NCBI GenBank assembly: GCA_029582155.1
Contig: CM055908.1
Coordinates: 17,235,352-17,299,351, forward strand
Source: Panopea generosa
Taxonomy: Eukaryota; Mollusca; Bivalvia; Adapedonta; Hiatellidae
DNA length: 64,000 nucleotides
Direction: 5' to 3'
In this document: piece after piece, positions 25,801-28,800 of the stretch
Layout of the letters: each line of letters starts with the position of its first letter
Numbering within the stretch: position 1 is the stretch's first letter
Position numbers and translations under genes: made by a program
Notes under the pieces: generated by a model
What the model saw: only the letters and a program-made list of their open reading frames with translations
Told to the model about the DNA's origin: nothing
Database searches by the model: none

Positions 25801-28800
25801 GCATGTTTGTGCAGATTTTACATTTCATACGATCCGTAGCAGACCCAGTAACAGTAACATCTAACCACGAATACTTCAATTTCCATTCGGCTACCGTTTT
25901 TGTACTCACAGCGTCAGAAGAGTGCTTTTTTGGCTTCACTATCCGTGTCAACAAATCGTCTAATATTTCACTCGCAAGCTCATTTGGATCTACAATTACA
26001 CTGGTCAGGAGATCTTCAATAATCTGTCGGCACATTTCGTCACTCTGTACTTCCGACGATGTAAAATAACCGCGCAAAGTATTACTTTGGATCGGCAAGG
26101 TTTGTTTTTTCCTGCCTCGCGACGACATGATTGCGAAAGAGGAAATGAAAGCATTCAATCGCTGTTTACCGGCTATTCCTATATTAACTGCGCAGTAGTG
26201 ATCACGCGCGGGGAACCAGACAAGGCACCCTAAGGATTTAAATGATCGAAAGAAACAGAAAAAAAAACCTCTTTTTTTTTATTTCCCAATTGTTATAGAC
26301 GATTATCTCATTAAACTAAGAAAAGATGCATACTATGGTTTAAACTATTGAAATGGTTAGATCGTAATTCGACATCCATCGCATTTACATCCTATACATA
26401 TTTAATATTTTAAATGGGGCGCCATAATATTCGATGTCCTTTGTTTATGCAAAATAGTCTACAGGATACATTTTGATTGGACAATACGTTCTACGACGCT
26501 GTGTGTTACAATTCTTAAACTTTAAATGGATAATATATATACACTCTCAGTTGTCAAATTACTGATTACGCAACAGTATATATATATCGAGAACTGTATA
26601 AAATGATACGACACAGCGCGTGCCCTTGGCCATTTACACGGTCCGATGGAAGGATAAATTGTCGGCAAAGTCAATATCGCTTTGACCTAAACGACTAGAC
26701 TGGCATTTTGTTACTAGTGCTTTTTTTAGTCACTCGCTTTTCTAAATTTCCACTCGATTTAAGTGAGTATGCGTGTCTAAATTTGAACCCTGAGAACTAC
26801 CGAAAAGAATGTATACCGTACCGAGACGATTTTACGTCGATTACGCGCATGTTTTTGAACATTTGCGTATTGGGGTTTTCTGAATGGGTTTTTGTACGCA
26901 TGTTTTTTAATTTAATTGCGTTTTTGATAAAATCAATTGCGTTTTTACGCAAATACGCAACCTATCTGTAGCTCTGCAGACTGAGATTTAATTATTTAAT
27001 TATTCAAACACATTCATTATAGGGCATATTTATCTCCTTCGACACATGTACCATGTATTTGGAATAACTGTTATTAACAATGAAACTTAATTTAATACGC
27101 CCATTTGTAATGGTAGCACAATTATTTAATTTTCAGATTTGGAATGAGAAAAACTATGATAAAACTTATATCAAGGTAAGTTGAAAGTATGACTATCATG
27201 TTTCAGGCATTGTGTTTGTACATTTGCAGATCTGGAATGAGAAAGAAAATGATAAGATATATGTGAAGGTAAGTCATACGGAATCACACGCACATGTATG
27301 TGGTCATTAGTTTTGTGGTTACATTTTGCTGTATCGGTCACAGATTTTTCGAAATATCACATTTTTGGCTTGAAGGAAGTACAGTATATTAGGATTTTAA
27401 AAACAAGAAATGGCAAAAGAACATTTTTCTATGCCTATACATACTCACTGATCCCACATTGCCATAAGTTTAGCTTTTTAGAAGTGCCACAATTATATAT
27501 ACTGAAAAAAGGGTTTCTTAACTTGGTCTAAATGCCCAGGTTAGACTTAAATAGATTTCCTGCTTAAAATTGCATTTTATAACATTTTGGTTTCATTTTG
27601 ATTTCAATTGGATCTGTCATATTAGTTGCATATTATAGAATTTGATTCAATTTAGAAGGAGTCCAAATGACAAGATGGAGGTTGTCAGTATTTATCTATT
27701 TATAGAACAGTGGTTTTGTTTCAATTTCACCACTTTGATTAAAAACATCTTTTTTGTCATTTTTTAACAGGTTTAAAATATCAACTCATTGGTATATGAT
27801 TTATTAATGATAATGAAATGCTTTGTATCCATTTTGTAAGTTATGTTTTTAGACATTTGTATTGATTTTTCCAGAATGATATACATGTACTGCTTTTAAA
27901 GAGACAAGTGGTTACGCATTCTATTTTATCTTACACATACACAAAATAATCTACATATAATAACAGTTATATTTGATATGCCTTAAGAAAACAGTTTTTC
28001 TATGATCTTCATTTTTTTTTTATAAAACTACAATTGTTGTACTAGCTTTGCACATTTAAAGTGCAAAAAGAACGTCTCTAGATATCAGAATTGTGTTGTT
28101 ACTGTTTGCAGTTACACAACAAAATATGTGTGGAAATAGGTTGCACCATCCATCTCTACAAACAAAATTGAAAAAGAATGCTTTATGCAGAAATTATTTT
28201 CTTGCACACCAGATAAGGCCATAACAAATTAATTGCTTGATTATCATCCCCGCCCGTCCCTTAATTTACATGCCGCCCTGACCCTTTTTATTCCCCCACA
28301 CCCACCAAAAAAAAAATCTGCCCTCCCTCCCCCTTTTTATGAAAAATTTGGATGATAGTCTAGCAATTAATTTATAATGGGCTAAGGATATCTGCTTTTT
28401 TATCAGGTTAGATATTTCTATCGCACCCTAGGGCTGAGATAGAATTCTTGTGCTATGATATAACATATATAATATATGACGTAAATCCAATATATCTGCT
28501 GTAGCTGAAAATATATTTAAAATTCAGATATTTGAAACAGCATTATCCACAGGTTGCTTAACATGAGATTATCATATTAGAGACATGTTTCTCCATTTGT
28601 TATGTGTCTTATATACTGTGATTATTGAAATGTTGCAAATTGAGATTTGAATTGTCTGCTCAATTTCTTTGTATAAACCCGGCATAAATATACATGGAGG
28701 TATTTCATTGTTTGTGCATGTTTGATTGAATATTTAGCATCATTTTTATGCCATCGAGGGCTAACAGACAGTCAGTTAACCTAACCACTGTTTCCTGAAA

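Follow-up and report, generated by a model that had tools for sequence, protein, structure and literature searches.

In Panopea generosa, the gene for galactocerebrosidase (GALC), a lysosomal glycosidase that digests lipids, bears two neighbouring versions of exon 6, the exon that encodes the acid/base segment of the enzyme. This raises the question of whether both versions are used—and whether a transcript then takes one or the other—or whether the second one is a duplicate on its way to being lost. We have addressed this for a window of 64,000 nucleotides, the whole stretch of DNA analysed here (C15:17235352-17299351 of the 1.47-Gb genome), whose features are collected in Table 1. It is moderately probable that the two exons, 6a and 6b, represent a tandem exon duplication whose copies serve as alternatives in splicing, probably in a mutually exclusive manner.

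The GALC gene and its doubled exon 6

The preliminary description of this DNA had named the gene GALC, and its product bears this out: matches to PF02057 (412.5 bits), PF17387 (141.7 bits) and PF21708 (142.5 bits), i.e., the GH59 catalytic, central and lectin domains, are all present and lie far above the cut-off. The spliced model comprises 18 coding exons if 6a and 6b are counted once, with AG/GT borders and consistent phases throughout, and yields 735 amino acids with 6a; the 17 introns of this 6a form measure 430–8306 nt. The reading frame is complete with 6a or with 6b, the terminal stop being the only one, and a GALC pseudogene is ruled out by this full ORF. In a homologue search with a 452-aa partial product as query, the closest proteins among the matches listed (the best 120 of 3111) are bivalve GALCs—Ruditapes with 75% identity, Mercenaria with 72% and Mya with 68%—and one further protein at 73%.

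Table 1. Features of the GALC gene, its exon 6 pair and the repeats in its introns (positions within the window)
Feature	Position	Strand	Remarks
GALC (GH59) gene	16740..55427	+	Spliced model with a single ORF; Pfam; homology
Tandem array	18881..19512		Intronic; 60-bp unit, 10.6 copies
Exon 5	22509..22676	+	Ends VDYVG; donor GGG/gtctgt scores 5/9
hAT-like transposase remnant	23805..26278	-	Intron 5, between exons 5 and 6a; two frames with stops
Repeat unit, copy 1	27129..27181	+	8 nt of acceptor, exon 6a and gtaagt
Exon 6a	27137..27175	+	39 nt, phase 0; canonical acid/base segment
Spacer/intron between 6a and 6b	27176..27229	+	54 nt
Repeat unit, copy 2	27222..27274	+	8 nt of acceptor, exon 6b and gtaagt
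Exon 6b	27230..27268	+	39 nt, phase 0; divergent acid/base segment, Asn for near-invariant Tyr/Phe
Exon 7	29100..29239	+	TLRRML...; in frame after 6a or 6b
Minisatellite	29194..36780		69-bp unit, 110 copies, 98% matches; begins within exon 7
Exon 8	37546..37663	+	Nucleophile segment WASEDYS
Tandem arrays	46208..46938		Intronic; 173/146-bp units, <3 copies
AG repeat	49811..50290		480 bp; just upstream of exon 50334-50413
Minisatellite	50420..53512		54-bp unit, rows of 13.5, 5.7, 5.7 and 32.2 copies; starts 7 nt past exon 50334-50413

For the exon pair, the preliminary description had given two 39-bp exons of the same phase with strong splice sites, differing at four of 13 residues with WNE kept and separated by a 54-bp spacer, and all of this is reproduced here. 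Each exon has AG directly before it and gtaagt directly after it. Scored against MAG/GTRAGT (maximum 9), their donors reach 9/9 and are the only ones of GALC to do so, the remaining 16 scoring 5–8; the acceptors each show an AG and 9/14 pyrimidines. An ungapped repeat scan delimits a repeat unit of 53 nt with 81% identity at a spacing of 93 bp, and clear similarity is restricted to the acceptor end, the exon and the donor—that is, it stops at functional edges. The exons themselves are identical at 30 of 39 nucleotides and 9 of 13 residues. Among the AG–39 nt–GT units of introns 5–6, only 6a and 6b have at least 4/13 residues of 6a, there being no third; no unit at 6/13 residues of 6a arose in 300 mononucleotide shuffles, which rules out a chance similarity of 6b to 6a. 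Two features expected of mutually exclusive exons (MXEs) are present in 6a and 6b: the copies are neighbours, homologous and alike in length and phase, and the splice sites of both are intact.

The preliminary description had allowed for an assembly duplication as a way in which its reading could fail. This is very unlikely with 9/39 differing sites and unlike flanks; since the similarity moreover ends at the splice-site edges, an assembly artefact of whatever kind has next to no probability. The same description held the flanking introns to be dissimilar, which applies upstream of the pair; the spacer, however, aligns weakly and collinearly with the intron that follows 6b. Six dinucleotide-shuffle tests of this alignment gave p values of 0.05–0.31, one earlier mononucleotide-shuffle test gave p = 0.014, and a score this high is also reached by 10 of 163 other intron pieces, so that any residual homology between the spacer and the downstream intron would be marginal.

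The introns of the gene are further marked by five array regions at the score limit used and by a transposon remnant (Table 1). The 69-bp minisatellite unit repeats the 3′ end of coding exon 7 together with its donor; the array hence contains 109 GGGTAAGT sites, of which the real donor (29238) is the first. In the hAT-like remnant of intron 5, a dimerisation region (PF05699) and a zinc finger (zf-C17orf113) were recognised in scans of three of the four listed ORFs, one being without a match.

Divergence, probable maintenance and origin of exon 6b

The divergence of 6b was gauged with a leave-one-out family profile of the 118 homologs, among the best 120 of 3111 listed, which carry the motif (it is missing from P0109 and P0113), representing 91 distinct segments. 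Exon 6a, with 43.7 bits, exceeds the family median of 40.4, and 6b, with 20.7 bits, falls short of all 91 segments (minimum 23.5); a paralog in this genome is likewise low with 22.3 bits. The residue three positions past the catalytic glutamate, Tyr or Phe in 116 of the 118 listed relatives and Cys in the other two, is Asn in 6b. What 6b keeps is the invariant WNE, Tyr at position 11, where only Tyr and Phe occur, and the common last Lys.

The low score and the lost aromatic residue are what one would expect if 6b were a dead or dying duplicate, 6a being constitutive and 6b being skipped after drift. It also fits this explanation that no 6b-like protein was found in the protein database, although both searches were insensitive: a search with the 6b segment matched only Mya, with Tyr, and did not even return the close Ruditapes and Mercenaria proteins, and a short alignment of the two versions, which saw only proteins near its own length of 88 aa, matched only a distant fragment with Trp. 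In addition, protein clustering at 90% conceals isoforms that differ by 13 residues. Against a relic speak the 9/9 donor, the intact acceptor and the open frame of 6b, and its retention of WNE, of the position 11 Tyr and of the last Lys. Neutral decay was simulated with the demands of an open frame, an intact IWNE and at most four residue changes. With all nine changes on 6b, these demands are satisfied in a fraction of 0.0069 (1.0% if WNE alone is required), and the eight unchanged splice-site bases contribute an extra factor of about 0.12, i.e., make it about eightfold lower. Neutral decay is less improbable with five of the nine changes on 6b, where the fraction is 0.14, with a further factor of 0.33 for the splice sites. 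We hence regard a relic as unlikely and favour maintenance of 6b. The earlier claim that both copies are maintained has moderate support, which is stronger if all nine changes fell on 6b (0.7%) and weaker if only five did (14%).

As to whether other bivalves use two copies, the proteins of Ruditapes and Mercenaria match at 9/13 residues of exon 6 and have the lowest fraction-of-windows value (0.13) in 21 hand-chosen pairs; three other pairs with lower overall identity have eight or nine matches there. That the representatives of these two species use different exon 6 copies is thus only a hint.

The history of the duplication may be read from two GALC paralogs on the same chromosome, at C15 51.8 Mb and C15 53.9 Mb. 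In the stretches read, each bears a single 39-nt WNE exon, IWNERPYNSNYIK and EWNEHNYDANYLK, to each of which 6a has eight and 6b six matches in 13 residues, counted by eye. As exon 6 is single in the paralogs and 6a is nearer to them, it is most simply inferred that exon 6 was duplicated in the gene of the window after the paralogs had split, and that 6b is the derived copy. Alternatively, the duplication might be older and the paralogs might have lost their second exon 6. One paralog (L012:264-302) carries EWNE in its catalytic exon in place of the usual I/V-WNE.

Proposed exclusive use of 6a and 6b

According to the mechanism we propose, exon 6 of a bivalve GALC would have been duplicated in tandem at an offset of 93 bp, which would leave the donor of 6a too near any branch point before 6b. 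The 54-nt spacer would then be inefficiently removed, and a transcript would hence take 6a or 6b, not both. The adenines located 14–45 nt before the 3′ end of the spacer, as candidate branch points, lie 8–33 nt from the 6a donor. For human MXEs, a donor-to-branch-point distance of <50 bp is described as causing steric interference in the available portion of PMC5740500. The candidates in the spacer all fall under this 50-nt limit, which was set for human exons. Joint inclusion of 6a and 6b preserves the frame, and a frameshift can hence not be what forbids it. Introns near 50 nt are routinely spliced in some invertebrates, and a paralog in this genome contains an intron of about 220 nt, which leaves the steric argument unproven for this bivalve. 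In the literature searched we found no number for the minimal intron size of bivalves, and the part of PMC11899663 at hand reports mean introns only. A length of 54 nt may be too short for splicing in this species; the mutually exclusive use that the preliminary description had called likely fits the splice sites, the ORF and the spacer geometry, and stands as a prediction from this anatomy.

If the spacer were instead a normal short intron, both exons would routinely be included and would give a 26-residue segment. Strong splice sites throughout and a preserved frame would permit this, but a second WNE segment would thereby enter the catalytic barrel, and none of the 120 relatives listed (the best of 3111) has two WNE, 118 having one and two having none; we consider joint inclusion very improbable. 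More weight, within what is still an improbable explanation, has a setting of enzyme dose, in which use of 6b, double inclusion or double skipping would each yield an inactive or unstable GALC and 6a alone a fully active one. A length of 39 nt preserves the frame in every one of these combinations, 6b lacks the conserved aromatic residue three positions past the catalytic Glu, and the donor of exon 5 (5/9) is among the two weakest of the gene. A precedent is given by human lung cancer cells, where RBM10 reportedly binds exon 6 of GALC, promotes its skipping and lowers GALC (PMC11895392, as far as available). Yet an exon that served to inactivate the enzyme could dispense with WNE, which 6b retains, and IWNE and frame are kept above expectation in the simulation with all nine changes on 6b.

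The human gene bears on both sides of this question. The donor of its exon 6 is placed at c.621 in the accessible part of PMC12731088. From what these sources convey, alternative splicing involves exon 6 in the human as in the window gene, but the human gene has one exon 6 which is included or skipped, whereas the window gene has two versions. Position c.621 presumably corresponds to the end of a 39-nt exon at the Lys of IWNE...YIK, under the newer human residue numbering. Regulation of the human exon thus supports alternative splicing in the clam GALC, but also the setting of dose.

Taken together, the reading of 6a and 6b as alternative exons draws on the 53-nt unit conserved at 81%, the 9/9 donors, a full ORF either way and the geometry of the spacer; on the single 39-nt exon 6 in both paralogs; on the alternatively spliced exon 6 of human GALC; and on alternative exons elsewhere in GALC, as implied by annotated isoforms.

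Possible exon choice in the family and the active site

Isoforms annotated by NCBI show such variation in the lectin part of the protein. The X1 and X2 forms of Pomacea canaliculata GALC (P0025/P0026) diverge in one homologous segment of ~60 aa close to where the lectin domain begins, and the X2 and X3 forms of Lingula anatina (P0016/P0021) diverge in the same segment, X3 ending just after it. It looks as if molluscs and a brachiopod had duplicated a lectin-domain exon and made alternative use of it. This segment corresponds to exon 47177-47354 of the window gene, around the beginning of the C-terminal lectin domain, and not to the catalytic exon; in the window gene, this exon is present in a single copy. 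The near-identical GALC proteins of two Mytilus species (P0012/P0017) likewise differ mainly in one segment of the lectin domain.

In vertebrates, exon 7 of GALC occurs in two types, which are 50–57% identical in three pairs of ray-finned fish whose remaining sequence is 83–88% identical; for Echeneis and Dicentrarchus, the values are 57% in exon 7 and 84–88% elsewhere. Pairs of the same type are 68–77% identical in exon 7 (eight pairs were compared altogether). The types group P0107, P0111, P0114 and P0119 on one side and P0079, P0103, P0108, P0112, P0118 and P0106 on the other. This suggests an old alternative exon 7 beside exon 6 in vertebrate GALC, although the two types could be paralogs. 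The vertebrate case, deduced from proteins alone, concerns exon 7, and the window case concerns exon 6. The GALC pairs of Babylonia (P0007/P0008) and Physella (P0033/P0039) are patchworks in which identical blocks stand beside divergent ones, which suggests either that paralogs have exchanged sequence by gene conversion or that several exons are subject to choice.

Outside the family, two systems may be compared, as far as the sources are available. KHK has alternative tandem exons beside the ATP site, and the catalytic residue Arg108 is in both isoforms (PMC9741552). It resembles the pair described here in being an enzyme whose swapped exon retains the catalytic residue in both forms. However, KHK is a kinase, the use of both copies is inferred in GALC, and in 6b a conserved position close to the catalytic residue has been exchanged. 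For exons 4a/4b of OGDH, exclusivity is enforced by branch points near the donor of a length-limited intervening intron (PMC7969005); there, the branch points were mapped, whereas for 6a/6b the arrangement is known from geometry alone.

WNE is encoded in both 6a and 6b and SEDYS in exon 8 of the spliced model, and with 6a the WNE and nucleophile segments can be aligned by sequence to 4ccc_A, a GALC chain of solved structure. We take the WNE glutamate of exon 6 to be E182 and the SEDYS glutamate of exon 8 to be E258. The former is reported as general acid/base and the latter as nucleophile (PMC4445328), and E182 is reported to move upon substrate binding (PMC5764952), both according to the portions of these papers at hand. 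Both products would retain Trp-Asn-Glu with the general acid/base, and 6b would alter the residues right after it; the 6b enzyme would hence be a tuned or weakened form rather than a mere copy. Whether splicing here swaps the acid/base segment such that 6b provides a remodelled pocket for a different substrate or pH range is doubtful. A changed substrate preference, to which the position of the change points, is possible and similarly tentative, and since 6b breaks a near-invariant aromatic position, a lowered activity is as plausible as a new specificity.

The preliminary description knew of no GALC with paired catalytic exons, and in the literature searched on paired GALC exons and molluscan tandem exons we did not come upon a previous description of two exon 6 copies in GALC either. 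In the available main text of two papers on human MXE genes (PMC5740500, PMC9741552), the word GALC is absent, and the accessible parts of PMC11895392 and PMC12731088 treat the skipping of exon 6 and, within intron 6, a cryptic exon, and mention no paired exon. Tandem duplicated MXEs are already known as a kind, and the exon 6 pair in GALC would be a new instance of it.

If the doubtful reading with a remodelled pocket were true, a single gene would provide two GALC activities, and duplication seems to have affected other exons of the family as well. Together with exon 6 skipping in human cells and the isoforms of the family, a pair in use would mark GALC exons, including exon 6, as recurrent targets of splicing control. 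It would also be an experiment of nature in which the active site of GALC, the enzyme missing in Krabbe disease, exists in two versions—with the conserved aromatic residue three positions past the glutamate as a specific, testable position.
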